64,000 bases of DNA from a virus, in IMG/VR virus record IMGVR_UViG_3300031997_000001, positions 171,459 through 235,458 of that record. One strand, 5' to 3'. Of the stretch, positions 29,182 through 63,221 are shown piece after piece (within the stretch, counting starts at the first letter, position 1; each line of letters begins with the position of its first letter). The notes beneath the pieces were generated by a model. That model ran no database searches, had not been told where the DNA came from, and saw nothing but the letters and a program-made list of their open reading frames with translations. The position numbers and the translations under genes are program-made.

Positions 29182-30066
29182 ATGAGGTTATCGCAGCTCT
29201 GCGAAGGTTGGCGCCGCATTTCATATGACAAGCTCGCCTCACGACTGGCTGAGGCCGTCATACTCGGACTCAAGCGGCACTTCATCCCAAAGAGCAAGAC
29301 GGAACTGTCGAAGAATACGACGTTCTATATAAAGGTCGCCAAATGGGACAGAGATCCATGGAATCCGCCGCCTAAAGCAGCAGCAGTAGACATCCTCCCC
29401 CCAGACACCACGAAGCTCATTCAGGACATGTTCAAGGACACCCTGACACATGTAGCTAGGGATTTTACTCTCCGCGTAGAAGTAAAGGATGTTCAGCTCT
29501 GGCACGCGGGCTTGGCGTTTTTACGCCGTTCTGACGACGAAGCGGACATATCTATCAACATTTATTGTCACCATGAGTGGGAGCTTGGATGGGGAGGAGT
29601 GCAAAAGAGTTTGAGCATGACGTATAAGAGCGTTGCACAAGTCCTGCGGCATGAACTAGAACACCTGAGGCAATATGGATCTGGTGAAAAGCGCGACGCC
29701 TATGACGCACGTAAAGACTGGTTCGCGAAATCAATGGTCAGGAACCTCGCCCCACGCGTCGTGTCTATGCCCCACTACGGCAATGCTAAGTATTATAACT
29801 GGATCACGGACGTTCACGAAATAGGTGCAATGGTTACGGACATCCATTTCAGCGCACGAAGAAGGGGAGTATCGTTCGAAAAAGAATTACAAAGACGCCT
29901 AGCGGAAGATGAGAGAAGGCTGAAGGAAGAGGGGATCCCGGACGATCTGATTGCAGACATCACCAAGAGATGCTGGGATTTCGCAGCGAAGAAGTATCCA
30001 GGACTCATTAAGAAGCAGGTACCCGAACTGAAATCCTCGGAGCCGGTTGTTCCTCCGACCGGATGA
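29182..30066 (+). CDS. Zincin-like metallopeptidase, putative virion cargo
   Basis: A 294-residue protein. A zinc-peptidase helix VLRHELEHLRQY gives HExxH (H157, E158, H161), with a possible downstream ligand in WITDVHEIGAMVTD (H212/E213). The C-terminal 70 residues are helical and charged. The N-terminus MRLSQLCE-G matches the L-x-E cleavage motif of T4-type capsid-targeting peptides shared with four other plus-strand genes here. It stands alone on the plus strand. Substrate unknown; processing of virion or host proteins is possible. Confidence 0.75.
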   Translation: MRLSQLCEGWRRISYDKLASRLAEAVILGLKRHFIPKSKTELSKNTTFYIKVAKWDRDPWNPPPKAAAVDILPPDTTKLIQDMFKDTLTHVARDFTLRVEVKDVQLWHAGLAFLRRSDDEADISINIYCHHEWELGWGGVQKSLSMTYKSVAQVLRHELEHLRQYGSGEKRDAYDARKDWFAKSMVRNLAPRVVSMPHYGNAKYYNWITDVHEIGAMVTDIHFSARRRGVSFEKELQRRLAEDERRLKEEGIPDDLIADITKRCWDFAAKKYPGLIKKQVPELKSSEPVVPPTG

Positions 30067-30227
30067 GATCTCCTATAACGAAATGCGGGACTGCGGCTCA
30101 GGCATCCAGAAGGTCCGGTTCCCTCCAGGCCGCTGACCAGCAGTTTTTCGTGATTTTCGTCGAACTATGCCGCTGACCTGCTGGCTAGCCTTTCTCGCGC
30201 GTCACATGCGTACGTGGAGGGTTCGAA
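30067..30227. other. Spacer with repeated TTCGAACTAT-type motif
   Basis: No gene. It includes GTCGAACTAT at 30159, and GTACGTGGAGGGTTCGAACTAT (30211-30231) repeats with one change the sequence before the 29182 gene. CCGCTGACC occurs twice. May be promoter or operator DNA. Confidence 0.45.
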
Positions 30228-30545
30228 CTATCCGCCGGAATTGAGGCTGCCGGAGACGGGTGAACTGGGTGCCAGACCGGAAGACAAGTTCCGGGCACCC
30301 AGGTCACCACCAAGCGGAAGTCCGACGCGAGTGAGTGGTGGAGGTGAGGGTAAGAAGCTGGATGGCATCCATCCGCTGTTCACAAAACCTATCTGGATGC
30401 TTCCGCACACGAGCAGGTTGTACAATGCGTATTCAGGAGAAAGGCCCTGTAGGACCTGTCCGCACCAGGGACAGAACCGGTGTCCGGTGGCGTAGTTGAC
30501 CCCGCCGGACTGCGAATTCGAAAGCTGACATGTGCAGTAAGGCAC
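30228..30545 (-). CDS. Possible zinc-ribbon protein
   Basis: A minus-strand frame of 105 codons begins with a good zinc ribbon (PYCTCQL, GHRFCPWCG) but becomes low in coding character after about residue 60. A plus-strand frame (30214-30495) overlaps it and also has Cys. No clear SD on either. Tentative. Confidence 0.4.
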   Translation of the reverse strand: MPYCTCQLSNSQSGGVNYATGHRFCPWCGQVLQGLSPEYALYNLLVCGSIQIGFVNSGWMPSSFLPSPPPLTRVGLPLGGDLGARNLSSGLAPSSPVSGSLNSGG

Positions 30546-30624
30546 GCCCTATTTACGCGGGAGGCAGGGATTCCGGACGCGTCGCACGCGCACGCGTTGC
30601 CTTCGAACTATTCAAAGGTAGGGT

Positions 30625-30813
30625 ATGAAGCAGACCTGCAAGTGCGGTGAGCCTCTGCCGCCCGAGGTCCAGGCGAAGATAGAAAGCCTCAAGCTGGTCC
30701 TCTCAGAATCACTCCCTTACCTGACGCACAGCGCCACGCTCTCCAAGGACCTGGTCCCATGGTCCGAGGCGCTGGTCCAGAAGGTCCACAAGGTACTGTT
30801 CCTGGATCCGTAG
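30625..30813 (+). CDS. Small protein
   Basis: A 62-residue protein (MKQTCKCGEPLPPEVQAKIE) with AAGGTAGGG before ATG. N-terminal C-x-C, then two helices. Followed by the membrane peptide at 30834. TTCGAACTAT lies 14 bases upstream of the start. Function unknown. Confidence 0.62.
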   Translation: MKQTCKCGEPLPPEVQAKIESLKLVLSESLPYLTHSATLSKDLVPWSEALVQKVHKVLFLDP

Positions 30814-30833
30814 GCTGGAGAAGTCCCGATCCT

Positions 30834-30929
30834 ATGATCTCTAATACCCGCTTCAAGCTCATCGCCGCCTTCATCATCCTGTGTCTGCTCTACGCCCTGA
30901 CGCTCGCCATCATAGGGCGGATGAGCTGA
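30834..30929 (+). CDS. 31-residue membrane peptide
   Basis: MISNTRFKLIAAFIILCLLY then ALTLAIIGRMS: one strong transmembrane helix with basic residues at both ends. GGAG lies rather far upstream, so initiation may depend on the preceding gene. Holin/antiholin-like or regulatory micro-protein are options. Confidence 0.55.
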   Translation: MISNTRFKLIAAFIILCLLYALTLAIIGRMS

Positions 30930-30936
30930 CCGGATT

Positions 30937-31485
30937 CTAGGACGCACAGGCCCGCTCACATCTCTGTCTGCTCGCGGAGGCAATCCGCCTGTCGAGCGCT
31001 AGCTGGTCCCCCTTGAGCGGATAGCCGATCCGCCTTATGACTCCAAAGTATTCCCCTACGACGTCATGGCCGCACCAGTTCATGTACCTATCGTGTGTAT
31101 CTCTCCAGGCGGACCGGTCGCCGTAAAGGGCGTTGACGATGGTATTGTCTCTGGGATTCTGCAGGTCGTAGAGGTCCCGCTCGTGGAAGACGCGCCAGGC
31201 CCAGAAGTCCACCAGCCAGCGGCCGTCGATGAGGCAGAAGTCGTGGCCGAGGTCCTTAGCGACGATCACCGCGCTGTCGTTGGCCGGCCATCCGTGCTCG
31301 CGCCCGTGGGTGTAGCCTATCTGCTGTCCGTTGAACTCCCAGGTGAAGATGGCGGCGGTCCAGGAGCACATGCCGTACAGATCCCTTCCCGTCACGGGGT
31401 CCTTGACGAAGCCATGCGCGCACTCCCACCTATATTGGCGGCGGAGGCGCGCGAGCTCCCTCCGGATCTCCCTAGGCTTGTTCAC
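30937..31485 (-). CDS. Hypothetical protein
   Basis: A 182-residue Trp/Arg-rich protein. The middle (IDGRWLVDFWAWRVFHERDL) and GYTHGREHGWPANDSAVIVA recall proteins handling small charged ligands, but no family is recognised. The stop of the gene is opposite the end of the plus-strand micro-gene. Confidence 0.7.
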   Translation of the reverse strand: MNKPREIRRELARLRRQYRWECAHGFVKDPVTGRDLYGMCSWTAAIFTWEFNGQQIGYTHGREHGWPANDSAVIVAKDLGHDFCLIDGRWLVDFWAWRVFHERDLYDLQNPRDNTIVNALYGDRSAWRDTHDRYMNWCGHDVVGEYFGVIRRIGYPLKGDQLALDRRIASASRQRCERACAS

Positions 31486-31742
31486 CTTCGGGGTCCTCCG
31501 CGTTCGATCTTCTTGCGCATGGCCTTGATCTCATCCGCGTCTAACAGACAGGCCCCGGCAAAATAGTGGTCCCGGATGCGGTCGTGCGAGCGCGCCCTCG
31601 CGAGACATCTGCCTTCCGCCCACCGCAGTGCATCAGCCAGGACGGCGCGGATCAGGACTGCGGTGGACGCGATCCTCCGCCCTTGCGTCTCATGGGAACG
31701 CCCCTTGACGCATCGCTCTGCATATTCATGCGGATCGATCAT
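31482..31742 (-). CDS. Helical basic protein
   Basis: An 86-residue helical Arg-rich protein (MIDPHEYAERCVKGRSHETQ). Its MIDP beginning resembles the upstream gene's MIDPRLF. Overlaps the 30937 gene as ATGA. Function unknown. Confidence 0.65.
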   Translation of the reverse strand: MIDPHEYAERCVKGRSHETQGRRIASTAVLIRAVLADALRWAEGRCLARARSHDRIRDHYFAGACLLDADEIKAMRKKIERGGPRR

Positions 31743-31747
31743 AGTCT

Positions 31748-32125
31748 CTACCCCTTGACTTCCTGCGCAGGCGCGGTAGCCTTGATCAGGTGGCGTATCT
31801 GGTCGACGTCGTACTGCGCCTTGATCCATCCGTCATGGGACTTGCCGCCCGGGGCGAAGTCGGCGCTCCCGCTCATCCACTGGACGAGCCCCCATGCCAG
31901 GTGGAGTGCCTCCTTCAGCCGGCTAGTCTCCGTGTCATCCAATTTCGCTTTCAGTACGTCCCGCTCAGTGCAGTACTCCAGTCTCGCTTTCAGGGCGTCC
32001 CGCTCAGTGCAGTACCGGCGCGCCTCCTGATTGGCTTCCGAGAGGCTGGCCTCCAGCGCGGCTATTCGTTTGGATGACTGTTCCGCCTCGACCGCCATCT
32101 CCGTGAAGAGCCTTGGATCTATCAT
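31748..32125 (-). CDS. Coiled-coil protein with ERDALKA repeat
   Basis: A 125-residue protein. Residues 10-70 are a coiled coil with a direct repeat YCTERDALKARLE / YCTERDVLKAKLD. The C-terminal part is a small folded domain (AWGLVQWMSGSADFAPGGKS). The ERDALKA motif also occurs in the genes at 32162 and 38212. Function unknown. Confidence 0.68.
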   Translation of the reverse strand: MIDPRLFTEMAVEAEQSSKRIAALEASLSEANQEARRYCTERDALKARLEYCTERDVLKAKLDDTETSRLKEALHLAWGLVQWMSGSADFAPGGKSHDGWIKAQYDVDQIRHLIKATAPAQEVKG

Positions 32126-32161
32126 GGATTAGCCCCTAAAGAAGTATATCAAAAACCCGGG

Positions 32162-32848
32162 TCAGGAATGTCGTGAGATATCTAGTTCCAGTTCCGAAGG
32201 GTCATAATGGCCCACCGTCCCATCCTCGTGCTGGACTTCGTAACAAAGGCCGTGGGAGTCGTGGTGCTTGAGGATAGTCCCCTTGACGCCCCATTTCCTG
32301 GACGCCAGAGCTTCTCCGGTCCAGTCACCGCGGCCAGACCAGAAAGGCTTTGTGGTCTTCACCTTCGTACCGGGGTCCAGAGGGGGCCATTTCTTCACGT
32401 CGGGTGTATGGTCAGCAAGGCCGCCAGCAGGGATTCCAGGGTTTTGGCCTTCCACGATCCCTTCTACGAGCTTTTCTGCCTCGGCTATGTTGACCCTGAC
32501 GTCATAAGCTACCCGCCCGAACGCCAGGGATTCCGCTATCCACTTGATCAGCGGACGAAGCTTGGGATCGTCCAGCTTTCTGATCCTGTCAATGGCCTCC
32601 TCGCGGGTCAAGAGAGTGAAGTCGATGTCCGCTTGTGCGCCCTCGCGCCATGCAGCGCCCTCTGCCTTCAGCGCATCTCGCTCAGCAGTCAGAGTGGCGA
32701 TGCGTTTCTCGTATGCGGCCTCCACACAGGTTATCCGAGTCCGCAACATATCGCATTCCTGCACTAGACCGTTTACTCCGGCCTTCAGTGCATCCCGCTC
32801 GTCGGTCAGTGCATCAATTCGCGCCTCGTGACTTGTAGGGTCGCCCAC
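32162..32848 (-). CDS. Coiled-coil protein with SH3-like end
   Basis: A 228-residue protein, GTG at 32848 behind AGGAGG. The N-terminal coiled coil contains DERDALKA and AERDALKA. The centre is helical. The C-terminal 60 residues (GTKVKTTKPFWSGRGDWTGE, VKGTILKHHDSHGLCYEVQH) look like a small beta barrel. Function unknown. Confidence 0.7.
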   Translation of the reverse strand: MGDPTSHEARIDALTDERDALKAGVNGLVQECDMLRTRITCVEAAYEKRIATLTAERDALKAEGAAWREGAQADIDFTLLTREEAIDRIRKLDDPKLRPLIKWIAESLAFGRVAYDVRVNIAEAEKLVEGIVEGQNPGIPAGGLADHTPDVKKWPPLDPGTKVKTTKPFWSGRGDWTGEALASRKWGVKGTILKHHDSHGLCYEVQHEDGTVGHYDPSELELDISRHS

Positions 32849-32862
32849 TTTGTGCCTCCTGG

Positions 32863-33072
32863 TTACTTGATGACGATCTTGTGCAGTGCTTCCGCGGCGA
32901 TGTGAAAGCAGGGTCCAGCTGGCGAAAGGTCGCATCCGGGCCCGTCTTCCTTGCAGACCGCCTGGAGGGCGGCTACTGCTAAGTCCAGCTTCTCGGTCAG
33001 GGACCTCTCGGGTTCCAGCCGCAGGAAGCGTAGCTGCGTAGGGCGCAAGCCGAGGTCAGGATTTTCTGGCAC
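32863..33072 (-). CDS. Small helical protein
   Basis: A 69-residue protein, GTG start with AAGGAAG. MPENPDLGLRPTQLRFLRLE then a helix with three Cys. Function unknown. Confidence 0.6.
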   Translation of the reverse strand: MPENPDLGLRPTQLRFLRLEPERSLTEKLDLAVAALQAVCKEDGPGCDLSPAGPCFHIAAEALHKIVIK

Positions 33073-33120
33073 AGTACTCTTCCTTAATAGTGCTGTGGCA
33101 ACAGGGCCGATCCAGTGACC

Positions 33121-33354
33121 TCACCGTCGAGGCGTACTCCGCACAGTTTGGCTCTTTCGCCTGTCCATCCGGGCCAGCGACCGCTTGAGCCTGGACGCCT
33201 GGATGTTGACGATCTTGGTGCCGAGGTAGTTGCCCTCGGGGCCTCTGAATTCCACGACAACCTCTATCCGGCCCTTGCACTCGTAGTACCAGGACTTGGC
33301 ATCGATCTTCTGAGGTCCCCGGCGCCCCAGGCTGCATCTCGTCTGTCTGGTCAT
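33121..33354 (-). CDS. Small basic beta protein
   Basis: A 77-residue protein whose core (SWYYECKGRIEVVVEFRGPE) is clearly strand-rich and whose ends are Arg-rich. May bind nucleic acid. Function unknown. Confidence 0.6.
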   Translation of the reverse strand: MTRQTRCSLGRRGPQKIDAKSWYYECKGRIEVVVEFRGPEGNYLGTKIVNIQASRLKRSLARMDRRKSQTVRSTPRR

Positions 33355-33855
33355 TTATTTCCCTTTCATTTCATGGGCCGCAATCACCGCGTTGCAGACG
33401 GCACGGGCGGGGTGCTTGGCAGTGCCTTCCCAGTCGACCTCGTTCCACGCGTCATCCGCGGTTCCTACGACGTAGAACCACCCGGCTACCCACAGGTCAA
33501 GCTCTTCGTGGTAGATCAGGCTAAAGCGCCCGGTGAGAGCAGGTCGCTTGCCGACGCGCAGGCGCAGCCCTATCTTCTTGACCGCCTCCATCGCGTCATC
33601 AATGCATCGGGCGGGCGTCCAGGAGTGGGAATCCGGGATGTTCACCCACTCGCTTTCGAAGACGCCTCCGGTAGCGCGGTCGTCGCGCTCCCAGCAGCCG
33701 TGGTCATCGGCATAAGGCTTGGGAGACGGCCAGACGAGGTCCATCCCCTCCTTGTCCCAGGACCAGGACTTCCATGTCATGCCGAGGATCTTGGAGGCAA
33801 TGAAGACGTCTGCCTCGTCGTCGGTCATCGCTGCTATCTGTTTCTGGCTAAGCAT
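33355..33855 (-). CDS. Phage ABA-sandwich (DUF2591-like) protein 1
   Basis: A 166-residue protein. An N-terminal QIAAMTDDEADVFIASKILG precedes the alpha-beta-alpha part ending PARAVCNAVIAAHE, a signature of DUF2591/phage ABA-sandwich proteins. Tandem paralogue of the next gene upstream. Function of the family unknown. ATG at 33855. Confidence 0.75.
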   Translation of the reverse strand: MLSQKQIAAMTDDEADVFIASKILGMTWKSWSWDKEGMDLVWPSPKPYADDHGCWERDDRATGGVFESEWVNIPDSHSWTPARCIDDAMEAVKKIGLRLRVGKRPALTGRFSLIYHEELDLWVAGWFYVVGTADDAWNEVDWEGTAKHPARAVCNAVIAAHEMKGK

Positions 33856-34204
33856 GTTTCGCCTCATGGGCTGCAATGACTGCATTGCAGACGGCGCGGG
33901 CGGGGGCGCTATGCGACATCCAATCCACTACGGCACCCCATCCGGCCATCCACTTCTTCGTACCTAAATTCCAGACGAGACCAAAAGTCAATCCCTCTAA
34001 TTCCAGCCCCATCTTCCCCGCCGCCTCGACAGCCTGGTTGAGATCGGTGGCAAACTGGGCGGCATAAGAACTCGTTCGGCTGATATCTCCCGTCCACCAG
34101 GTGCCGTAGGAGAATGTCCACCCCATCACCTTCTCGGCCAGATACTTGCTGGCCTCCGCGTCGGTGAGTGCCTCGATCTGCTTGCGAGTAAGCAGGGTAA
34201 GCAT
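33848..34204 (-). CDS. Phage ABA-sandwich (DUF2591-like) protein 2
   Basis: A 118-residue paralogue of the 33355 protein, same QIEALTDAEASKYLAEKVMG start and PARAVCNAVIAAHE end, lacking a ~45-residue central segment. Tandem duplication is evident. Confidence 0.75.
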   Translation of the reverse strand: MLTLLTRKQIEALTDAEASKYLAEKVMGWTFSYGTWWTGDISRTSSYAAQFATDLNQAVEAAGKMGLELEGLTFGLVWNLGTKKWMAGWGAVVDWMSHSAPARAVCNAVIAAHEAKHA

Positions 34205-34205
34205 T

Positions 34206-34421
34206 TTATCCTCCTGATGGCTGGTCCGTGGATTCCCGGAGGGCAGAAACGCTGTGGACTATGTCGTCCGCCGGGAGGCCGCACAAGCGGCAGGGTTCCT
34301 GACCGGCGAAGCGCTCCGCCTTGCCGTCAAACCCGTGCATCTTACACAGGGCTCGCTCGAGCTGCTGGACCCTCTGGCGAAGAGCTTCCGCGGTCGATTC
34401 CTGGAATCCTTGGGCTGTCAT
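34206..34421 (-). CDS. Small helical protein with Cys pair
   Basis: A 71-residue protein, coiled-coil start (STAEALRQRVQQLERALCKM) and CRLCG in the second half. Function unknown. Confidence 0.6.
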   Translation of the reverse strand: MTAQGFQESTAEALRQRVQQLERALCKMHGFDGKAERFAGQEPCRLCGLPADDIVHSVSALRESTDQPSGG

Positions 34422-34427
34422 GTTAGA

Positions 34428-34562
34428 TCACTGAAAGCTGGTCCGCAACCCGTGCTTCGGACAGGTCTTCGCTTCCCATTTCTCGCCCTTCTGAGGCAGG
34501 CGCAGCTTCCTGCTGGTCAGAGCACGCCAGGCAAGCCAGAGGTCAGTCAGCCTCTTGAACAT
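34428..34562 (-). CDS. 44-residue basic protein
   Basis: MFKRLTDLWLAWRALTSRKL and CPKHG near the end. GGAGGAATAAAG before ATG at 34562. A CCGTATTTCAC element lies 38-48 bases upstream of the start. Function unknown. Confidence 0.58.
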   Translation of the reverse strand: MFKRLTDLWLAWRALTSRKLRLPQKGEKWEAKTCPKHGLRTSFQ

Positions 34563-34626
34563 CTTTATTCCTCCGACTGGATAACAATCCCTACCAGTGA
34601 AATACGGGTCCGAGAAGCATATCGAA

Positions 34627-34740
34627 CTAGGTATGACACTGACATCTACACCATCTATCATGACAGAGGTTGTGCAATTCTGTTTTGCACCACCTACTTC
34701 TTTTCGTGCGATGCTTGCGCTTCAGTTTGGATGCTTTCAT
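34627..34740 (-). CDS. Possible 37-residue Cys-rich basic peptide
   Basis: ATG at 34740: MKASKLKRKHRTKRSRWCKT then five more Cys/His-rich residues to the stop. Distinctive but small, with no SD, just past the terminator of the upstream gene. Tentative. Confidence 0.35.
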   Translation of the reverse strand: MKASKLKRKHRTKRSRWCKTELHNLCHDRWCRCQCHT

Positions 34741-34748
34741 ATTTCATC

Positions 34749-34778
34749 GAGGGCCTGGGCATTGCCGCCCAGGCCCTC
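34749..34778 (-). terminator. Hairpin after the 34784 gene
   Basis: Perfect 12-bp stem GAGGGCCTGGGC/GCCCAGGCCCTC, 6-base loop, five bases beyond the stop codon. Likely terminator. Confidence 0.6.
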
Positions 34779-34783
34779 TCTAT

Positions 34784-35398: not shown

Positions 35399-35422
35399 TG
35401 ACGGATCTCCAAAAAAGAAACC

Positions 35423-36006: not shown

Positions 36007-36015
36007 ACTCAGACA

Positions 36016-36504: not shown

Positions 36505-36552
36505 TTCGTGCCTCCCGAAAGGATTGTCGAAAACCTTCACCCAACTAGATCA

Positions 36553-36581
36553 TTAAAATACAGAGGGGAATCTCCCGTCAA
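36553..36581 (-). promoter_or_regulatory. Promoter for the 36016 gene
   Basis: On the minus strand: TTGACG (36581-36576), 17-base spacer, TTTTAA (36558-36553) inside GTATTTTAATG. About 49 bases before the start codon. Confidence 0.55.
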
Positions 36582-36684
36582 GGATTTCGTTGTATCTAGA
36601 GCAATACAACAATAGGAGCGAGCTCGCGGGTCAAACGTATCTCACGGAAGTGCGGATTATTCCCCCTTACTAAGGAGGCACGAC

Positions 36685-37353: not shown

Positions 37354-37357
37354 AGAT

Positions 37358-40034: not shown

Positions 40035-40475
40035 ATGCGCTTATCCTTATTGACAGAAGCCGATCCTTCTTATCGCATTGTTGAGCTGCGCCCGGGTGCG
40101 AAATCCGAGCTAGCCGACCAAGTGGACCTGGAGAAGGAGAATAATAATTTCGTCGTAGGGGCTCTGACCAACGACGACATGGCGCGGACTGCCGTGCTGG
40201 ACGGCGACGAGGTCATCGGCGCCATGTCCTGGTCTGAGGAACCGAAGGTCATTTGGATGCACATGTTCGGATCCACGAAGAAGGGTGCCGGATCGATGCT
40301 TTTGAGACGCCTGGCCGGGAAGGCAAGGACAGCCGGGAAGCAGATCTGGCTGAATAGTATTGCCGGGATGGAAGAGTATTACAGGAACCTCGGCTTCCGA
40401 AGGGAACCGTCCACCGGGCAGGAAAGGACCTTCGCTGCGAATCCGGAAGAGGTCCTGAGCAAGCTGGGGAGCTAA
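40035..40475 (+). CDS. GNAT acetyltransferase, putative virion cargo
   Basis: A 146-residue GNAT-fold protein: strand AVLDGDEVIGAMSWSEEPKV, the coenzyme-A loop and helix GAGSMLLRRLAGKARTAGK, and EEYYRNLGFRREP near the end. The N-terminus MRLSLLTE-A matches a T4 gp21-type cleavage site. No SD; TTATTTT abuts the ATG. An acetyltransferase that may act on host or virion components. Confidence 0.75.
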   Translation: MRLSLLTEADPSYRIVELRPGAKSELADQVDLEKENNNFVVGALTNDDMARTAVLDGDEVIGAMSWSEEPKVIWMHMFGSTKKGAGSMLLRRLAGKARTAGKQIWLNSIAGMEEYYRNLGFRREPSTGQERTFAANPEEVLSKLGS

Positions 40476-40476: not shown

Positions 40477-40689
40477 ATGACAGATCAAGAAAAGGTCTGC
40501 GGGACGTGCAAGCATTATACGCAATTCCAACAGACGAATTGCGGGGATTGCGCTATGAAGCCGCCTTTTCCCGATAATCCCAATACCCGGGAAGGCACCT
40601 GGGATGACATGAGCTGTCCGCGGTGGGAGTCTGTGCAGCTAGCCCCACCTGAGTTGCCGAATCTAGACCAGAACCCGCCTACAGCCTAA
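40477..40689 (+). CDS. Small Cys-rich protein
   Basis: A 70-residue protein with CGTCKHY, CGDC and CPRW, fitting a small zinc-binding fold. Starts one base after the previous stop. Function unknown. Confidence 0.65.
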   Translation: MTDQEKVCGTCKHYTQFQQTNCGDCAMKPPFPDNPNTREGTWDDMSCPRWESVQLAPPELPNLDQNPPTA

Positions 40690-41067
40690 TCCGAACGGCA
40701 AGTCCGGCACGACCACGATGACTTTTCTTTCCACTGTCTCGATTTCCGACTCTTCTTCGGCTCTTATTTCTTCCGGGTCCAAATATCTCCGGCCAATGAC
40801 GCTGAAAGTACTGCGCCACACGGCTTCCCTTCTCTTCTCCTCTGCCTTTATCGCCACCCTACGCTTCGCTTCCTGGACCTGCTCTATAAGGTCTTTAAGA
40901 ATCTGTTCATCGACCTCTTTGGCCATCTGCTGGGACATTGCCTGGATCAGTTCTTCTTGAAGTCGCTCTCCTATGTCAATGCCGTGAACCGCCTTTAGGT
41001 CTTCCACAGCCTCTACGGACCAGGCTGCCTTCAGCCCTTTCATGGACGGTGTCGGCATTGGTTGCAC
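40663..41067 (-). CDS. T4 gp23-like capsid-related fragment
   Basis: A 134-residue protein. KAAWSVEAVEDLKAVHGIDI followed by EELIQAMSQQMAKEVDEQIL is strikingly like the segment of T4-type major capsid protein gp23 and vertex protein gp24 (sequence WS-x-E-x-x-x-DLKA-x-HG-x-D and a helix ending EI-x-x-EID). The rest is helical. A complete capsid protein would be about 450 aa. May be a fragment, decoration or assembly protein. Confidence 0.6.
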   Translation of the reverse strand: MQPMPTPSMKGLKAAWSVEAVEDLKAVHGIDIGERLQEELIQAMSQQMAKEVDEQILKDLIEQVQEAKRRVAIKAEEKRREAVWRSTFSVIGRRYLDPEEIRAEEESEIETVERKVIVVVPDLPFGLGCRRVLV

Positions 41068-41303
41068 GCTGACCAGACTATCGGCGAAGTCTTGAGCAAG
41101 GGAAATGTAAAATTCTTCTCGAATGAATTTGCGGGTGAGGGTGTGCCGAACTCTTTTACGAATTCTTCCTGGCTTGAGATGATTTTGGGCAGAGGCCCTT
41201 TGGGTATTTTACCTATGACCCCCGCCCATTTCTTTATAATCTCATTCGGGACATAACCAACCTCGTCGATGAAGGAATACTTTTTGGCTTTTGGCGCGTC
41301 CAT
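41040..41303 (-). CDS. Hypothetical protein (leaderless type)
   Basis: An 87-residue protein (MDAPKAKKYSFIDEVGYVPN). ATG at 41303 follows GTATTTT-AATTCC directly, six bases after the -10 box. Function unknown. It overlaps the next gene's start by 28 bases. Confidence 0.62.
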   Translation of the reverse strand: MDAPKAKKYSFIDEVGYVPNEIIKKWAGVIGKIPKGPLPKIISSQEEFVKEFGTPSPANSFEKNFTFPLLKTSPIVWSACNQCRHRP

Positions 41304-41332
41304 GGAATTAAAATACGAACCAAAAGTATCGT

Positions 41333-41929
41333 ATGGCATTCGAACGTCTGCTCTGTGAAGTCCTCGGCCTCGAGGTCATCATAACCGACATCGACGATAC
41401 CCTCGTCGCGGTCGGGAATCGGGCAGTAGAGTCCCTCAGGCAGCTCGACATCGAGGCCACCCCCGAGGACTGGGAAGAAAAGCTGGATGCCCTAAAACAG
41501 AAGGCGAAGCAATCCCAGGAGGATAGGGACAAGGTCAGTCAGTTCTTCAAGATGTTCCTGGACGACGCCTTCACGCATCTGGATGCGCCACATAGAGCCA
41601 TTTACGATTTCATCCGTATCCTGGCCAGCAAGTCAAGCCTCCCCGTGGTAGCCGTCTCCGGCCGGCCGGAAAAGATGATCAACAGCGCCATGAAGATACT
41701 CAAAGGCATTCCGCTGACGGACATCATCCTGAAGCCGGAAGGCCAGCGGATGCTAAAAGCGCCGGAATACAAGGTGGATGCCATTAGAAGGAAGAATTAC
41801 ATACCCAAGTTCGTAATTGATGACGAGCCGACTGTCCTGGACGCGATCGGGAAGGAATGGCCCGACGCCGTCCTCTATAGGGCACATAACGGAAGCATAG
41901 TCCCCTATTTTAGCAAAGATCAGACATGA
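41333..41929 (+). CDS. HAD-family phosphatase
   Basis: A 198-residue HAD protein: TDIDDTLV (nucleophile D19, D21, T23), VVAVSGRPEKM (motif II), KPEGQRMLKAPEYK (motif III Lys region) and FVIDDEPTVLDAI (motif IV). It resembles polynucleotide phosphatase/HAD families of phages. The first residues MAFERLLCE-V weakly match the cleavage motif of cargo proteins. Substrate unknown. Confidence 0.8.
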   Translation: MAFERLLCEVLGLEVIITDIDDTLVAVGNRAVESLRQLDIEATPEDWEEKLDALKQKAKQSQEDRDKVSQFFKMFLDDAFTHLDAPHRAIYDFIRILASKSSLPVVAVSGRPEKMINSAMKILKGIPLTDIILKPEGQRMLKAPEYKVDAIRRKNYIPKFVIDDEPTVLDAIGKEWPDAVLYRAHNGSIVPYFSKDQT

Positions 41930-43635: not shown

Positions 43636-44147
43636 GCCCGTTAGCAGAACTCATCAAGAAATGGACAAGCAAGAAGGGAAAGGCAAGTATCCTCCCGAAG
43701 CCGATCACAGCTCCCGGAGCTGTCAATCCTAATTGGAATCCGTTGGCGGTAGACGAAGAAGTCTACATGCCTCTGGGCGTACAAGGGCTTGTGGGCGGCC
43801 CGGGAGTCCAGGGCTGGCAAGGGTCTGTGGGCTGGCAAGGGTCTGTGGGCTTGCAGGGTCTTGGAGGCTACCAGGGAGGCAGTCAGGGCAGTTGGGGCGG
43901 TTGGACCCCTGGTAATCAGGGGTTCAATAACCCGCCGCAGGCGGTCCAGGTCTCCGTCTCTTCCGCCCCCGTGAATGGGGTCAGGGAGGTCACGCTGACT
44001 GCAGAGGGCCTTGGCAAGAAGATCTCCATCCAGGGATTTGGCGTGCTGGTCTGGGACGGGAAGGAATGGCGTCTGGACGGGAGGAAGGCGGGCGAGATAG
44101 CTTCTGGTCCGATCGGCGAACTCGGAAATCGGATCATTTCTTTCTGA
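43632..44147 (+). CDS. Gly/Gln-rich collagen-like protein
   Basis: A 171-residue protein. Residues 48-98 carry a Gly-rich region with G-x-QG units (GVQGLVGGPGVQGWQGSVGW), broadly collagen-like, then a beta-rich C-terminal domain (VREVTLTAEGLGKKISIQGF) possibly for trimerisation. Likely a fibre or surface protein. Its start overlaps the preceding gene's stop. Confidence 0.68.
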   Translation: MSPLAELIKKWTSKKGKASILPKPITAPGAVNPNWNPLAVDEEVYMPLGVQGLVGGPGVQGWQGSVGWQGSVGLQGLGGYQGGSQGSWGGWTPGNQGFNNPPQAVQVSVSSAPVNGVREVTLTAEGLGKKISIQGFGVLVWDGKEWRLDGRKAGEIASGPIGELGNRIISF

Positions 44148-44938: not shown

Positions 44939-45487
44939 ATGAGACTTTGTCTTTTACATGAAGCCGAAGCAGGCCAGATAGACATCCTCCAAGTCGCTAA
45001 GATACTGGAGAGCGAGGTGTTCTCCGGAATTAAGCGACTTGGGAAGGACTTCCACTCATTCCAGTTTAACTGGCCCAGCCCCGTTAGCGACACCATCCGC
45101 GACGACGTCATAAGATGCCGCGTAAGCGCCGGCGCCGGTGGCAGGCCCGTCGCGGAGAGGACTTATCTCATAAGCCTTGGAACGGGTAAGCCCGGCAAGC
45201 AGAAATCGAGGGATGAAAAGTGGGCGGATATCATGCAGAAGGCGGAACAAGCTACGCAGAGCATACCCCTCTTCCTGGCCAGGACAATCTTCGGCGTTTT
45301 AAATAAGGAGAGGCGCGTACAAGCGGGCCCAATCATGGTAGTGCAAGCGGTAGAAAAAGAGAAAGTGGTAGAGACCAAGAATTATCCTATCACGTCGATA
45401 GGGCTAAAGGATCTCAGATTGGATATTTGGGACTGGGCGAAGAATGCCGTGCTCGAGGTCATGCCGGGGGCGCAGAAGCTTCGGTAG
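44939..45487 (+). CDS. Hypothetical protein, putative virion cargo
   Basis: A 182-residue protein; N-terminus MRLCLLHE-A is a good gp21-type cleavage site. The mature part has strand-rich segments (FHSFQFNWPSPVSDTIRDDV) and LDIWDWAKNAVLEVMPGAQK near the end. TTAAATAC and AAATATAC lie upstream, no SD. Function unknown. Confidence 0.68.
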   Translation: MRLCLLHEAEAGQIDILQVAKILESEVFSGIKRLGKDFHSFQFNWPSPVSDTIRDDVIRCRVSAGAGGRPVAERTYLISLGTGKPGKQKSRDEKWADIMQKAEQATQSIPLFLARTIFGVLNKERRVQAGPIMVVQAVEKEKVVETKNYPITSIGLKDLRLDIWDWAKNAVLEVMPGAQKLR

Positions 45488-45661: not shown

Positions 45662-45832
45662 ATGAAACTCGAGCTGCTTGCCGAAGATGTGATTCTGGAA
45701 CGCATCAAGAAGATCGGCCCCGGGAAATGGCGAGTCCTTTCCAAGAAGGGGAAGAATCTCGGCACGTCTTCGTCGAGAAAGGGAGCCGTAAAGCGCCTAG
45801 GCGAAGTCGAGTTCTTCAAAAGCCAGAAGTAA
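45662..45832 (+). CDS. Small basic protein, possible cargo
   Basis: A 56-residue protein: MKLELLAE-D start, then KWRVLSKKGKNLGTSSSRKG and KRLGEVEFFK. The core (KW-x-VLSKKGK-x-LG...KA-x-KRL-x-x-VE-x-FK) is a pattern I recall from C-terminal pieces of several phage proteins. Function unknown. Confidence 0.62.
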   Translation: MKLELLAEDVILERIKKIGPGKWRVLSKKGKNLGTSSSRKGAVKRLGEVEFFKSQK

Positions 45833-55293: not shown

Positions 55294-55321
55294 CCTCCGA
55301 TTACGTTTCAGCAGAGACCGG

Positions 55322-56389
55322 CTACTCGTCCTTGATCTCTTTCAAGAGACTGTCGATTTCCGCATCCGCGATCGGCCCGCCATCCGCCGGTGATTCCTCA
55401 GGTTCCGGCGCAGCCTTAGCCGCCGTGGCGGGCTTCGCCGGCTTGGTAGGGGCTTCCTCCGTAACCTCGTCCTGGAATTCCTCTGCAGGAGGAGCGGGTT
55501 TGGCTGCCGCAGGCTTTGCGGCCGGAGCAGGCTTGGCTGCTGCTGGCGCGGGTTTGGCTGCCGCAGGCTTCGCGGCCGGGGCGGGCTTGGCTGCCGCGGG
55601 CTTTTCCTCCGTGTGGTCCTCATGGAATCCGGCATCATCGCCAGCGGTGGTCGGCGACTTCTTCAGGATGTTGTCCACCTTCGCCTGGAGCGCTGCCAGG
55701 TCGCGTGCGGCGAACTTCGTGGGCACGTCATGCCGCCTGGACAGGATCTCCTTGATCTTGGCCTCGTCCTTGGACAGGGGGCCCTTGGTCGTGACCAGGA
55801 ACTTGGACTCCTCGTAGTTGTTGTAGCCGCCCTTGCTCTTGATGACGACCTTCATGACGTACCCGGCCTTCTCGTCGTAGAACAGGCCGAACGGCGCGGG
55901 ATCGTCCTCGCTGCCGGCATCGTCCCGCAGAATGCACTCCTCGCACTTGTCGTAGAGCGTCTTCGGGATGTTGGCCCAGAAGACCTTGCCGCGGAGGTCT
56001 TCCTGGACGTTGGTAGACTGTGGGAAGTAGATGTTGACGCCGTAGTAGCTCCTGGCGAGGTACGTCTTGGCGATCTTGCTCTTCTGCTCCTTGTCCATTC
56101 CGTCCATCAGCTGGAAGCCGAGCTGACAAAGCGGGCACTCCGCCCCCTGTTCATGAATGCGCGGGCATTCCAGCCGCTTCATGTCCAGGAAGTGGCTGCC
56201 GTTCATGTAGAACCAGAGGTCGCCCATGCTCGGAACGGGCGGTAGAAACTTGATGTAGTAGGTGAGCGTCTCGTTTTCCTTGGCCTTGGGGAACCGGAAC
56301 TCGTTCGGATCCTTCTGCCCGCCGCCCTTCTTGTCCTGCATCAGCTTGCGGATCCTGGCAATGTCCTCGTTCTCGCGGATCACGGTCAT
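55322..56389 (-). CDS. gp32-like single-stranded DNA-binding protein
   Basis: A 355-residue T4 gp32-like SSB. Basic N-terminal arm; the OB core has a zinc site (H66, C75, C85, C88; LECPRIHEQGAECPLC). A long Ala/Pro/Lys linker (about 245-300) with repeated AAKPAPAAKPAAAKPA and an acidic C-terminal tip (AEIDSLLKEIKDE) that would contact partner proteins. AAGGAGG before ATG. Coats ssDNA during replication and repair. Confidence 0.88.
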   Translation of the reverse strand: MTVIRENEDIARIRKLMQDKKGGGQKDPNEFRFPKAKENETLTYYIKFLPPVPSMGDLWFYMNGSHFLDMKRLECPRIHEQGAECPLCQLGFQLMDGMDKEQKSKIAKTYLARSYYGVNIYFPQSTNVQEDLRGKVFWANIPKTLYDKCEECILRDDAGSEDDPAPFGLFYDEKAGYVMKVVIKSKGGYNNYEESKFLVTTKGPLSKDEAKIKEILSRRHDVPTKFAARDLAALQAKVDNILKKSPTTAGDDAGFHEDHTEEKPAAAKPAPAAKPAAAKPAPAAAKPAPAAKPAAAKPAPPAEEFQDEVTEEAPTKPAKPATAAKAAPEPEESPADGGPIADAEIDSLLKEIKDE

Positions 56390-56425
56390 GACTTCCTCCT
56401 TTAATGGTTCTCCGTGAAATACGGC

Positions 56426-58107: not shown

Positions 58108-58412
58108 GGAGATGAAATACTTTCCGGTCGGAAATAACGGCAGACGCCCGGGAGAATGCTGACTTTCCAGCCCGAATTGAAGAGTGCGTCCAGTTGGTCA
58201 TCCCGCCAGATGAGCTCGAGCTCACATCCGAAGTGCTTCTCTAGGAAGGCTTGAATCTCCTTATCCTTCTCTCCAAGGTAGGCCATAGTACAGCTCGGAT
58301 TTGAGACGAAGATCTGCGCGCCCTCTCCACATTTGCGACAGATGGCGCTGTACCACGTTTTCATTTGAAGTAGACCTGGCGACCCTGGAAAACGCATTCC
58401 ACAGTAGCTCAT
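58086..58412 (-). CDS. Hypothetical zinc-type protein
   Basis: A 108-residue protein with CRKCG in the first third and a C-terminal strand region (GWKVSILPGVCRYFRPE). Overlaps the FmdB-like gene's stop (ATGA) and the polymerase start. Function unknown. Confidence 0.63.
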   Translation of the reverse strand: MSYCGMRFPGSPGLLQMKTWYSAICRKCGEGAQIFVSNPSCTMAYLGEKDKEIQAFLEKHFGCELELIWRDDQLDALFNSGWKVSILPGVCRYFRPESISSPCPSTPS

Positions 58413-58768
58413 TTCTTCTTGATCCCGTGGGTCGCGATGACCTTCGGGTGTCCCTGGTGCTTGCCGCCCTTTCGGAGCTTGTCCACCAAGTCCGCTTTCT
58501 CGCCCGGCTGGCGCATATAACCATAGGGGTCGTCGTTCTCGAGTTGGTGTAGGTTCATACTACGCCTGGCGCCTGCCTTATCTCTGACCAGCCCATTGCC
58601 AGGGAAGAAGAACTGGAACGTCATCCCCAGCCAAGTCCTCTTACAGGGCTTCTTGCACTGGGGACAGAGGACTTCCGGCTTCTGGTTCATGCCGTGATTG
58701 ACTTCGAAGACGAAATCCTGACTATCTTCCGTCTTGTGATGTTCGCAGATGTAGTTGTAAGTTGGCAT
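58409..58768 (-). CDS. FmdB-type zinc-ribbon protein
   Basis: A 119-residue protein starting MPTYNYICEHH, then CPQCKKPCKRTW, the FmdB-family pattern (MP-x-Y-x-Y-x-C...C-x-x-C). Basic C-terminus. FmdB family members are putative regulators; the role in a phage is unknown. ATG abuts the helicase stop. Confidence 0.75.
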   Translation of the reverse strand: MPTYNYICEHHKTEDSQDFVFEVNHGMNQKPEVLCPQCKKPCKRTWLGMTFQFFFPGNGLVRDKAGARRSMNLHQLENDDPYGYMRQPGEKADLVDKLRKGGKHQGHPKVIATHGIKKK

Positions 58769-60180
58769 TAGGAATTCCCGCCTACCGTCGTAATGTTGAC
58801 GGCCGGCTCGTCCTCCTTGGCCTTCATGGTGACGTAGTTCATACGGATAGCTACTGTCTCGGACTTCGGACCGTTCCGATTCTTGGCGATGAAGAGTCTC
58901 GCTCGGGCGGCTGTGTTTTCAGCCCGGCTCGCGTCGTAGCCGGCCTCGTATTCGTTCTTCGTCTGATTGATACTCACGACGTAGGAAAGCGGCATAGATT
59001 TCCCGAAGGACTCTGCGATCTTATCCAGGTCGATTGACTTCCCGCCGCCAGTCCCGGCCGTCTTCTTGCTGGACTGCTCTTCCTCGTTCATGCCGTACCG
59101 GTTGGTCTGCGTCGCCGTGAAGACTGCCACGTTTTCCTTGTCGGCGAATCCGCACAGCTCCGTGGAGATGGACTTCTGTCTAGCGTAATCGTCCCGGTTC
59201 ATGAACTTGTTCCGCGAGACCATGAGTTCCAGGTAGTCGATAATCACGACTCTCGGATTGAAGCCCTTGTTCCGCCTCAGGAAGTCCATGACCTGATGGA
59301 GGGTGTCTACGCTGACCTCGTCCGCAGGAAACTTGTAGAGGACGAGTTCCGCTCCATAATGGGCCTTGCATCGGCTCAGGATTTGCGTGATCTGATCCTT
59401 GTGCGCCATCCGATGCATATGCGTGACGACCGGCACATTGGTGAATGCGCCGGCGTACCTGACTTGGGTCTTCTTGATGTCTCCTTCGAAGGAGAAGTGT
59501 ACGACGTTGTGCCCAGCCCGTACGTTAGCCTCTCCCGTGTTGCAGAGCATGTAAGTCTTGCCGACGTTGGTCGGAGCCATCCAGACGAAGACGTCGCTTA
59601 TCGTAGGCCCGCCGTCGTTGATGTACCTATCAAGCTTCGGGAAGCCCGTCGTGAACTTGATTTCATTCTCTTCCGTGAAGAGCTCGTGAGCGCGCTCGAA
59701 GAACCAGATTCCCGTCTGGCTGACGTCGGTGATCTTCCTGGCTGATTCGACGATCTCGTTTACGCGGTCAAAGTTCCCGCGCGAGACTTCCTCCATGACT
59801 TCTTTGGAGTAAAGGAGACCCAGGGCACGACGTTTGGCGAATTCGACGACGGACTGCTTGACGACCGGAGCTTCCCGAGGATCAGATTGCTTGTCGATGA
59901 GGGAGATGATCGGCTCGTAGTCGTCATCGACCGTCAGGTTCTTCCTGGCAATGTCCTTTACCAGGCCGCGAGTCGGCGATACCCGGTGCTTCTCTATGAG
60001 TTTCTTGATGATGGCGAATAGGAACTTGGACGGGATGTGCTTGAAGTGATCGATCTGGAGGTAGGGCACGACGGAACTGAAGAACTCTGGTAGGTCGAAG
60101 GCCAGCGCTATGATCGCCTGCTCTTCGTTCTCGCCGAACGTGCGAGAATCCTTATCGTGAAGGGTCTGTTCGTCTGACAT
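58768..60180 (-). CDS. dnaB: Replicative DNA helicase, DnaB/gp41-like
   Basis: A 470-residue helicase. N-terminal helical domain (1-150) and RecA-like motor: Walker A APTNVGKT (202-209), Walker B VVIIDYLELM (311-320), TQTNR (motif 3), and a Gly-rich stretch KTAGTGGGKSID. Unwinds the fork with the polymerase, SSB and 5' nuclease of this cluster. No SD before the ATG; TATTTA lies 14 bases upstream. No separate primase was seen. Confidence 0.9.
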   Translation of the reverse strand: MSDEQTLHDKDSRTFGENEEQAIIALAFDLPEFFSSVVPYLQIDHFKHIPSKFLFAIIKKLIEKHRVSPTRGLVKDIARKNLTVDDDYEPIISLIDKQSDPREAPVVKQSVVEFAKRRALGLLYSKEVMEEVSRGNFDRVNEIVESARKITDVSQTGIWFFERAHELFTEENEIKFTTGFPKLDRYINDGGPTISDVFVWMAPTNVGKTYMLCNTGEANVRAGHNVVHFSFEGDIKKTQVRYAGAFTNVPVVTHMHRMAHKDQITQILSRCKAHYGAELVLYKFPADEVSVDTLHQVMDFLRRNKGFNPRVVIIDYLELMVSRNKFMNRDDYARQKSISTELCGFADKENVAVFTATQTNRYGMNEEEQSSKKTAGTGGGKSIDLDKIAESFGKSMPLSYVVSINQTKNEYEAGYDASRAENTAARARLFIAKNRNGPKSETVAIRMNYVTMKAKEDEPAVNITTVGGNS

Positions 60181-60189
60181 TCTTTTTGT

Positions 60190-60600
60190 TCAGCTAAATA
60201 GATATGCTTGTGCCAGACCTCGTCGTGCATTGCGACACCCAACTTTTCGAAAGTGTCTCTTTATGGAATCGAGATACTTCACGGCCTCCTGGGGCGATAG
60301 GTCGGCTGGAATCGTGACGCAAAGAGTTTCCCGACCAACACGTTCCACGTGCATAGAGAATTTCCGACCATTTCTGGCCCGTTGGATGTCGTGGATTAGA
60401 GCGACGTCCTCGGCGAGCAGCAGTCTCCTGCGGTAAAGCTCTGCCTTCTTATGGTCCCCAATCGATTCGCAATGCTCTACTTTGTGCCGCCAATAGGCTA
60501 GGTCGTCTTCTCCATTCGGAATGGCTGCTTCTGTCTTGCGTCCGAGCAGGGGTGCAAATGGGAGGAGTGTGAGGGCTTTTAAAAGAGATCGTCTGTTCAT
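60190..60600 (-). CDS. Secreted or exported protein with twin-arginine signal
   Basis: A 136-residue protein with N-terminus MNRRSLLKALTLLPFAPLLG, a classical Tat signal (RR-x-LLK, hydrophobic stretch). The mature part is helical and basic (HCESIGDHKKAELYRRRLLL) with a strand (SMHVERVGRETLCVTIPADL). Export of a folded phage protein through the host Tat system would be unusual. GGAG-type SD is weak. Confidence 0.7.
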   Translation of the reverse strand: MNRRSLLKALTLLPFAPLLGRKTEAAIPNGEDDLAYWRHKVEHCESIGDHKKAELYRRRLLLAEDVALIHDIQRARNGRKFSMHVERVGRETLCVTIPADLSPQEAVKYLDSIKRHFRKVGCRNARRGLAQAYLFS

Positions 60601-60989
60601 GGGGCACTCCCAGTTGATCCGGCGCTCCCGCTTCCAGGCGGAGTCGGACCGGTGCTTCCCGATCCCGGTGAAACCGAGCATCTGGCGGCAAGCCGAGCCC
60701 TTTCCTCCCGCAACCTTCTCTCGAGATTTTGCACGACGAGCGTCTCTGCCTCGCAGAACGTCAGAAGTTCATCTTCCGTGAAGTAGAGCGTCTGGATGCG
60801 CTTCAGGTCAATATGGTCGCCGAGCGTCTGAGCGGACGGCGGCCTCCTGTTGATGTCGATCGTGTAAACATATCGGTCGTTCCTGAGCTGGAAGATCCCG
60901 CTGATCTTGTAGGCTTCCAGGAAGCCGATCTGCGCCGAGGACCTTAGATACACGACGTCATCGATCCGGAATGCGCTGACAATAGCCAT
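60597..60989 (-). CDS. Hypothetical protein
   Basis: A 130-residue protein: beta barrel-like start (MAIVSAFRIDDVVYLRSSAQ), helix, and Pro/Gly/Ser-rich tail. AGGAGT before ATG, ATGA overlap with the Tat-signal gene. Function unknown. Confidence 0.64.
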   Translation of the reverse strand: MAIVSAFRIDDVVYLRSSAQIGFLEAYKISGIFQLRNDRYVYTIDINRRPPSAQTLGDHIDLKRIQTLYFTEDELLTFCEAETLVVQNLERRLREERARLAARCSVSPGSGSTGPTPPGSGSAGSTGSAP

Positions 60990-61020
60990 AGCCAGACTCC
61001 TATTGGGCCTGGCGTATCTT

Positions 61021-62076
61021 TTATTCCTCCGGCGCTTCCTCCTCCGGTTTGCTGATGATCACGTCCCTCTTCCGGATCTCCTCCCGGACCAGGTTCTCCA
61101 GTTCCGCTGTTATCTCGGGCCTTTCTACAAGGAATTTAAGAGCTTGATCTATGCCGTTCCCAATCTTTTCGTCCTTGAAGCAAATCCAGGCGCCGGCCCT
61201 CTTCAGGATACCACACTGCTCCGCCATGTCGGCAATGCAAGCTTCCCTTTGGATGCCTCTCCCGAAGACGAGTTTGAATTCGGCCTGGCGGAACGGCGGG
61301 GCGACCTTGTTCTTCTGGACCTTGGCGCGGACGATGATGGCGACGGCATCGTCTCCTTCCTTGACGGTCGAAAGGCGCCTGATCTCGATCCGGACAGACG
61401 CCCAATATTTCAGAGCGCGGCCTCCGGATGTCGTCTCCGGATTTCCGAACATGACTCCGATCTTCTCTCGCAGCTGGTTCGTGAAAATGACGCAGGTCTT
61501 CGTCTTGTTTACGATGGGCGCCAGCTTGCGTAAGGCTTTTGACATGAGGGCTGCCTGGGCGCCCATCTGCTTATCTATGAGGTCGCCTTCCAATTCTGCC
61601 TGGGGGACCAGGCCGGCGACGGAATCGATGACGATAAGGTCCATGGCATTCGATGCTACGAACCTCTCGACGATGGTTAAGGCTTGTTCGCCGCTGTTTG
61701 GCTGGGAAAGGTAGAGCTTGTCCATGTCCAAGTTGATCTTCTTGGCGTAGGCAGAGTCAAAGGCGTTCTCGACGTCGACGAACATTGCCCGGCCCTTCTC
61801 GGCCTGGACGTTCTTGACGATCTCCATGCAGAGCGTCGTCTTCCCTGACGCTTCAGGGCCATAGATTTCCGTGATACGGCCACGAGGAACTCCCCCAATC
61901 CCGAGGGCGATGTCCAGACGAAGGGATCCCGTCGGAATAGCCTCAACGTCGCGGATGATGGTCTGCCCGTGCATGACAGACCCCTTGCCGAAATCCTTCT
62001 CGACGGAATCCCAAGCGTGCTTGATGGCCTGCTCTTCGGCCTTGAAGTCCTGGGACTCATCTTTTTCTTTCGCCAT
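61021..62076 (-). CDS. recA: RecA recombinase
   Basis: A 351-residue RecA, nearly the E. coli length. Walker A GPEASGKT (73-80), LIVIDSVAGLVPQAE (Walker B D151), DKQMGAQAALMSKALRKL, and TNQLREKIGVMFGNPETTSG (L2 region). Acidic C-terminal tail EEEAPEE. Catalyses strand exchange. No SD; upstream GTATTTTAATT (about 62100) and TTTAAG precede the ATG. Confidence 0.95.
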   Translation of the reverse strand: MAKEKDESQDFKAEEQAIKHAWDSVEKDFGKGSVMHGQTIIRDVEAIPTGSLRLDIALGIGGVPRGRITEIYGPEASGKTTLCMEIVKNVQAEKGRAMFVDVENAFDSAYAKKINLDMDKLYLSQPNSGEQALTIVERFVASNAMDLIVIDSVAGLVPQAELEGDLIDKQMGAQAALMSKALRKLAPIVNKTKTCVIFTNQLREKIGVMFGNPETTSGGRALKYWASVRIEIRRLSTVKEGDDAVAIIVRAKVQKNKVAPPFRQAEFKLVFGRGIQREACIADMAEQCGILKRAGAWICFKDEKIGNGIDQALKFLVERPEITAELENLVREEIRKRDVIISKPEEEAPEE

Positions 62077-62104
62077 GGGATACTCTTAAAGGGGCCGCGC
62101 TCAA

Positions 62105-62350
62105 TTAAAATACTGGCTTTGCGTCGTCGACTGCCTTGAGAATCCTGCCCATGTCATACGAAGCGATTTTGACGACGTCGACCATGGGAATTCGGATGAT
62201 AGTATTGTTTCTAGCCAGCATGAGATCCGCACCCATGGAACCGACGACTATCCAATCCCCTTTGGGCGTGGCTGGCCTGCCCTTTGGGCCGGAGACATAT
62301 TTGACGTGCTTTTCTTCCTTCAAACGGACGATGTCATTTTGTCTAAACAT
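62105..62350 (-). CDS. Hypothetical protein
   Basis: An 81-residue protein with SH3-like strands (MFRQNDIVRLKEEKHVKYVS; GDWIVVGSMGADLMLARNNT). GAGGAAGG before ATG. Function unknown. Confidence 0.66.
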   Translation of the reverse strand: MFRQNDIVRLKEEKHVKYVSGPKGRPATPKGDWIVVGSMGADLMLARNNTIIRIPMVDVVKIASYDMGRILKAVDDAKPVF

Positions 62351-62394
62351 AAAGCCTTCCTCAAAGATATGTTGACCATTAAATGGAGACTGCC

Positions 62395-62901
62395 ATGAAC
62401 GCTAGTGAGAAGCTCCTCCTGGAAGCCGTCCGCAACATGTTGCACCAGGATGCTAGGCTAGGTCTGGCTTATCACAAGCCGGACCAGGTGAAGCGGGAGT
62501 CTTCTCACTTCATGCAGTTCCATCGAGAGACCATCGACGATATGTACCAGCTTGCGATCTCCGAAAGTAAGTTCGCCGACTCCCTCACTGCCGCATTCAG
62601 CAAGGTTCACTGCCACAAGTACATCGACGATCCGACGTTCAAGCTGGCGATGGACACCGAAATGCGCTCCATGGGCCTCCCGCAAGAGGACCGCGACCTC
62701 GCCCTGAAGTCAGTCGACAAGGTTATCAAGGAGCTGGTGGAGGGCGGAGAGAGGGCTGCTGGCTGGAATCCGCGGATGGACGAGCTGGTCGACCTCACCT
62801 CCAATGCCGACAAGCACGAAATGTCTCACGAGCCGCCCTGGACCGGGGGCGGGCCAAACCCACAACCTGAGAGGGACAAGGCCCTAAAAGCTGCAAAATG
62901 A
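62395..62901 (+). CDS. Hypothetical protein, possible virion cargo
   Basis: A 168-residue helical protein (MNASEKLLLE-AVRNM): LLE before A could be a gp21-type cleavage site. GGAG before ATG at 62395. Final third is disordered (PPWTGGGPNPQPERD). Function unknown. Confidence 0.66.
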   Translation: MNASEKLLLEAVRNMLHQDARLGLAYHKPDQVKRESSHFMQFHRETIDDMYQLAISESKFADSLTAAFSKVHCHKYIDDPTFKLAMDTEMRSMGLPQEDRDLALKSVDKVIKELVEGGERAAGWNPRMDELVDLTSNADKHEMSHEPPWTGGGPNPQPERDKALKAAK

Positions 62902-63221
62902 GACTGACCGCGCTATTCGAATCCACAGCAGGCGACCTCAAGCAAGCCATGGGTCTGCGGTATTTCAAGAGAATGCAGGACCCGCTTAGATCATACCCCG
63001 CACAAAAGAAGCTCCTGCCACAGAGATCTGGTAATCAAGATACGCCGCTCAAGCCGAGGCATCGGATTTACTTCAATGCGCCGATTGGCGCCGTACAGGG
63101 GAAGATTGGCCGCGGAAGTCCATTAGGCGGGGATCTGATGGGCGGGGACGCTGGACCGAAGCGGAAGGGCTCAAGGCACTCCGGCTTCCTTCAGAGGAAG
63201 GGCAAATTCGACAGGCCCTAG
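62898..63221 (+). CDS. Hypothetical protein, putative virion cargo
   Basis: A 107-residue basic protein with N-terminus MRLTALFE-S, the shared cleavage-type start. The rest is Pro/Lys/Gly-rich (RHRIYFNAPIGAVQGKIGRG). ATGA overlap with the gene before. Function unknown. Confidence 0.68.
   Translation: MRLTALFESTAGDLKQAMGLRYFKRMQDPLRSYPAQKKLLPQRSGNQDTPLKPRHRIYFNAPIGAVQGKIGRGSPLGGDLMGGDAGPKRKGSRHSGFLQRKGKFDRP

Follow-up and report, generated by a model that had tools for sequence, protein, structure and literature searches.

Tagged genes in the window

The stretch analysed here (the window) makes up the final 64 kb of a linear virus record of 235,458 bases, the remainder of which was read in pieces. 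Five plus-strand genes in the window start with the pattern M[KR]LxxLxE, hereafter the tag. Re-reading of the sequence confirmed that the N-termini listed in a first-pass annotation of this DNA are exact at 29182, 40035, 44939, 45662 and 62898. The first gene (29182..30066, +) encodes a 294-aa protein with the N-terminus MRLSQLCE/G, where the slash marks the predicted cut, and with the sequence HELEH, an HExxH zinc-metalloprotease-like motif. The second (40035..40475, +) encodes a 146-aa protein, MRLSLLTE/A, that weakly resembles GNAT acetyltransferases (PF00583, E=0.0049, below the cut-off). The remaining three encode proteins of 182 aa (44939..45487, +; MRLCLLHE/A), 56 aa (45662..45832, +; MKLELLAE/D) and 107 aa (62898..63221, +; MRLTALFE/S) without an assigned function. 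The predicted targeting and cleavage peptides span 29182..29205, 40035..40058, 44939..44962, 45662..45685 and 62898..62921 (all +). The first four were assigned from sequence and motif counts, supplemented for the fourth by an orthologue in another contig, and the last from sequence and its homologues.

Pfam and PADLOC scans returned little for the tagged proteins of the window. The HExxH protein matched no Pfam, PADLOC or PDB family, and its AlphaFold model (mean pLDDT of 49) was too poor for use. In the collection 'phages', no relative of this protein or of a 1243-aa tail protein was found at the limits used. We compared the window with contig G001, 107 kb from a near-identical phage (mostly 90-99% identity across aligned stretches). 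G001 lacks the HExxH gene at a place where the two otherwise align, and the gene is therefore accessory. The 182-aa protein has an orthologue there that is 95% identical and has the same tag, while the orthologue of the 56-aa protein begins MKLRLLTE/D in place of MKLELLAE/D, so that the fixed positions stay and the free ones change.

The first-pass annotation had also listed two weaker matches. The gene at 62395..62901 (+), the upstream partner of the 62898 gene, is conserved in eight other clade contigs, and its N-terminus, MNASEKLLLE, sits within a conserved stretch. Because some homologues lack the E (KVLKA in G019), we no longer regard it as a tagged protein. The gene at 41333..41929 (+) encodes a HAD-like phosphatase (PF25109, E=2.5e-4, below the cut-off) whose N-terminus, MAFERLLCE, is possibly a member of a second N-terminal class that is less common.

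This second class, approximately MxFExxLDEAxG or MKFSERLDAILE/G, was found six times against 0.3 expected, and may represent a second targeting peptide. Its sites lie at record positions 58308 (+) and 113586 (-), in G028 at 123800, in G012 at 2336 (-) and in L343 at 980-1426. In L343 and L344, an N-terminus of this class lies directly upstream of the scaffold gene.

A T4-type jumbo phage and the spread of its tag

The record is a fragment of an uncultured giant (jumbo) T4-type phage. It encodes a gp32-like single-stranded DNA-binding protein (window 55322-56389, -) that is about 27% identical to those of T4-type phages, as well as two short gp23-derived proteins. One of these, a mini-gp23 (window 40663-41339, -), joins the N-terminal part of a capsid protein to a central helix and lacks the middle and the C-terminal half; its frame is broken in the record and open for 244 codons in G001. 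The other lies at record positions 122360-122764 (+). The record, which is fragmentary, yielded no gene for a terminase, portal, gp21 or full capsid protein. Elsewhere in the record, a 3738-aa open reading frame (76810-88026, -) and a long collagen-like stretch of low complexity (about 90600-96700) are likely fibre genes.

Contig G001, which represents the same phage, adds about 46 kb beyond the record, including a T4-type tail sheath, and through this sheath we reached relatives, 13 of which were examined. Both a gp21-type protease and gp23 were present in six of the 13. The capsid proteins of the relatives led in turn to 151 loci, of which 80 were retained, with contigs as long as 408 kb. 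Among contigs that have a head module, G028 (locus L219) is the closest relative, with a G+C content of 0.574 and a tetranucleotide correlation of 0.81. The best phage record for the clade capsid is an unannotated 595-kb metagenomic phage (41% capsid identity), followed by cyanophages at about 30%; within the collection searched, the clade is uncultured. Contigs L343-L345, which carry capsid and scaffold genes, are 84% identical to G028 and have a G+C content of 0.56-0.60, and two of their source samples also contain contigs of the record's phage. They are probably the phage's own head genes, joined to the record by no overlap. Contig G017, considered for this role on account of shared samples, was dropped because its G+C content (0.43 vs 0.57) and tetranucleotide profile disagree. 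In L032 (6379-7990, +), three similar proteins that perhaps are tail-tube paralogues follow the tail sheath gene (MPGFTI...) in a row.

Across the 235-kb record, 10 ATG-led open reading frames of at least 40 aa start with M[KR]LxxLxE, compared to a mean of 0.05 and a maximum of 1 in 20 dinucleotide-preserving shuffles. Among the internal Met residues of the called genes, 956 in all, none leads the motif. Five of the 10 starts lie outside the window (record positions 17213, 41804, 43888, 55075 and 113209), and one further start, at 105360, narrowly fails to match. As the pattern was defined inside the window, these five confirm it independently.

The excess extends to the relatives. In 16 clade contigs, 51 of 145 proteins starting with M[KR]L match M[KR]Lxx[LIVM]xE, where 2000 permutations gave 2.9 on average and at most 12. 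The 51 proteins fall into 40 mutually unrelated clusters, in line with the earlier view that the tag links proteins of unrelated function. Thus, the annotation's expectations that the motif would exceed scrambled sets (10 vs 0.05 in shuffles, 51 vs 2.9 in permutations) and that further proteins with this N-terminus would be found, here both elsewhere in the record and in relatives, were borne out. Among 124 M[KR]L open reading frames of 13 contigs, E occupies position 8 in 35% against a background of 5.7%, L or I occupies position 6 in 60% against 16%, and 55% have A, G, S, D, T or N at position 9; an excess of E like that at position 8 was absent at neighbouring positions in this set. The capsid-gene loci repeat the excess (13 of 29 vs 0.7 expected), and in most of the contigs scanned whole with a DNA pattern, the pattern clearly outnumbered its reverse. 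In G013, G016 and G017, no full-motif gene was found, perhaps due to size where these contigs are short.

Families of homologues retain the tag and vary at its free positions. The 62898 family, found in five contigs, has MRLTALFE, MKLVALYE, MKLNALHE, MKLRQLSE and MKLSMINE; the family of record position 43888 has MKLSTLYE, MKLQYILE and MKLNRILE; and that of 17213 has MKLSMLWE and MKLSMLYE. Synonymous codons of the tag differ between tagged genes, and therefore the tag is kept as protein and is not a copied DNA element. A search for promoter motifs 5' of tagged genes gave weak k-mer excesses only.

The set of tagged proteins varies from phage to phage. Those of relatives include three GNATs above the cut-off (in G019, G021 and G024), a NUDIX hydrolase, an RNase_T-like protein, and a 2'-5' RNA ligase/2H phosphodiesterase with a weak match to Acb1. 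In both the NUDIX and the 2H protein, the tag stands ahead of the enzyme domain; in the former, the domain starts at residue 11, which argues that the tag is an added prefix. The functions suggested for these proteins, like those in the window, are guesses from domains. A tagged 139-aa protein in G025 (L283, 3395-3814, +) looks by eye like the pre-toxin segment of polymorphic toxins and has no Pfam match. G032 has a tandem array of three paralogues (L328, 11096-15777, +), which are 468-558 aa long and all start with MKL(A/S)LILEAKLN; the first has no Pfam match.

The head protease and its predicted cleavage sites

The gp21-like protease invoked by the first-pass annotation was found in relatives, including G028 (L219, 7063-7743, +), with its catalytic motifs intact, but not in the fragmentary set of contigs from the record's own phage. 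Its His and Ser motifs are GE[LFY]DHP and GISSRG, compared to GELNHP and GVSSRG in T4 gp21. A weakly matching 139-aa gp21-like protein of G001 (L025, 13344-13763, -), whose gene adjoins that of a dCTP deaminase, lacks the catalytic motifs and was ruled out as the protease.

In each of the 72 clade capsid proteins examined, [LIVM]xE lies nine or ten residues ahead of a conserved NIADF or DIADF, a site that we equated by eye with the T4 gp23 maturation site. Since this site lies at about the T4 maturation position in every one of these sequences, the clade protease very probably cuts after [LI]xE, which is also how the tag ends. Most of the 72 have extra [LIVM]xE sites at about -82, -70, -58 and -25, and in the relatives read, [LI]xE/[AGS] occurs four or five times in the scaffold protein. 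The probable capsid protein of the record's own phage likewise carries [LI]xE sites. In tagged proteins, D often takes the place of A, G or S as the residue after the predicted cut (P1'), and the capsid site of the clade is often ILE/D. In G012 (L130, 1-2336, -), three consecutive genes 3' of the capsid gene share a stretch resembling NKNTIxHLAxFITEDPxEF.

A predicted signal for delivered head cargo

We interpret M[KR]LxxLxE, with its position-specific excess and conservation in a clade that has a gp21-type protease and [LI]xE sites in its head proteins, as a clade-specific version of the T4 capsid-targeting and cleavage signal for delivered head cargo (probability of roughly 0.77). By analogy with T4, the tag, through its basic residue 2 and hydrophobic residues 3 and 6, would dock cargo onto the prohead scaffold core. 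The gp21-type prohead protease would then cut after E8 and leave the mature cargo free inside the head, packed alongside the DNA, from where it would probably enter the host with the genome. GNATs, NUDIX hydrolases, 2H phosphodiesterases and the HExxH protein could then act in the host before phage gene expression. From the same precedent, we infer that the tagged proteins would be present in virions without their first eight residues and would be injected.

Other explanations were weighed against the same data. The tag might target proteins to the prohead and be cut there while most of the cargo serves as head-assembly or core components, retained in the head or lost from it ahead of infection, rather than as injected effectors. 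Many tagged proteins have no known domain, and the T4 core and scaffold proteins, such as gp22, also start with short peptides ending in [LI]xE. We nevertheless consider this unlikely, as several tagged enzymes (GNAT, NUDIX, 2H phosphodiesterase) have no evident structural role, the tagged sets differ among phages, and one tagged gene is missing in a near-identical phage. It is less probable still that the tag docks to another phage structure or enzyme unrelated to the head protease: the invariant E8, preceded by L or I at position 6, matches exactly the [LI]xE pattern of the clade capsid and scaffold proteins, even though an amphipathic N-terminal peptide this short could have many binding partners and cleavage is here a prediction.

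Recent exchange of one 5' gene end, as a mobile cassette or translation signal, could also produce shared N-termini, and Shine-Dalgarno-like sites are less frequent at tagged genes than at other genes (0.21 vs 0.41). Codons that vary among genes contradict this explanation, upstream sequences that vary likewise and the range of G+C content among the phages (0.39 to 0.57) speak against it, and we hold it to be very improbable. Chance resemblance or composition bias was a concern in that the pattern was originally defined from the window itself; it is refuted by independent counts, made beyond the window and in other phages, which beat every shuffle and permutation, and we give it next to no weight.

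The idea that the tagged proteins are packaged and probably injected is therefore well supported as a reading of targeted and cleaved cargo, and reaches far past the window: it describes a variant T4 internal-protein system in which the consensus differs and the cargo is larger and rich in enzymes. Whether this cargo amounts to an extensive arsenal of exchangeable enzymes, packaged beforehand in perhaps ten or more kinds per virion, all addressed by the one tag, renewed through gain and loss of genes and comprising counter-defence activities, is in our view an even bet. If so, the nucleotide-signal phosphodiesterases, NUDIX hydrolases and acetyltransferases would be candidates for counter-defence, and the tag would allow injected effectors to be listed in metagenomes by sequence only. 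With the tag present in a widespread uncultured jumbo clade, dozens of 'hypothetical proteins' become predicted virion-delivered effectors.

Among known systems, the DarA and Hdf (defence-against-restriction) proteins of phage P1 are similar, as likened by description only, in being head-associated counter-defence proteins. The clade resembles phiKZ and SPN3US in being jumbo phages with many head proteins and a protease that cuts, or in the clade is predicted to cut, after E. Cleavage in SPN3US occurs at A-x-E, and most propeptides have 111-254 residues (PMC5694885, PMC10052503). The tag differs from these in having L or I at P3 and a length of eight residues, and so does not fit the cleavage pattern of SPN3US.

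The closer parallel is to phage T4. Its internal proteins IPI, IPII, IPIII and Alt have a capsid-targeting sequence that is cut by gp21 (peptidase S77). Read in the same way as the clade genes, T4 ipII and ipIII start with MKTYQEFIAE/A and gp22 with MLKEQLIAE/A. The first ten residues of IPIII suffice for targeting (PMC9026906), and IPIII without its targeting sequence remains functional if made in the host (PMC9391042). The T4 proteins Ip1-3, which all inhibit type IV restriction enzymes, have only the N-terminal leader in common, and T4 internal proteins were found through this leader peptide (PMC12373910). The searches made here detected no homology between the tagged proteins of the window and the T4 internal proteins. 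What the two systems share is a short N-terminal peptide ending in [LI]xE on otherwise unrelated proteins, often with a small residue after the predicted cut site, and, at the level of the clade, gp21, gp22 and gp23 of the T4 type. They differ in that the tag has eight residues, M[KR]LxxLxE, rather than the ten of MKTYQEFIAE (T4 peptides have about 10-20), that the record has at least 8 to 10 scattered tagged genes where T4 has a few proteins, and that the predicted cargo, unlike the T4 internal proteins, is rich in enzymes (GNAT, NUDIX, 2H phosphodiesterase, HExxH).
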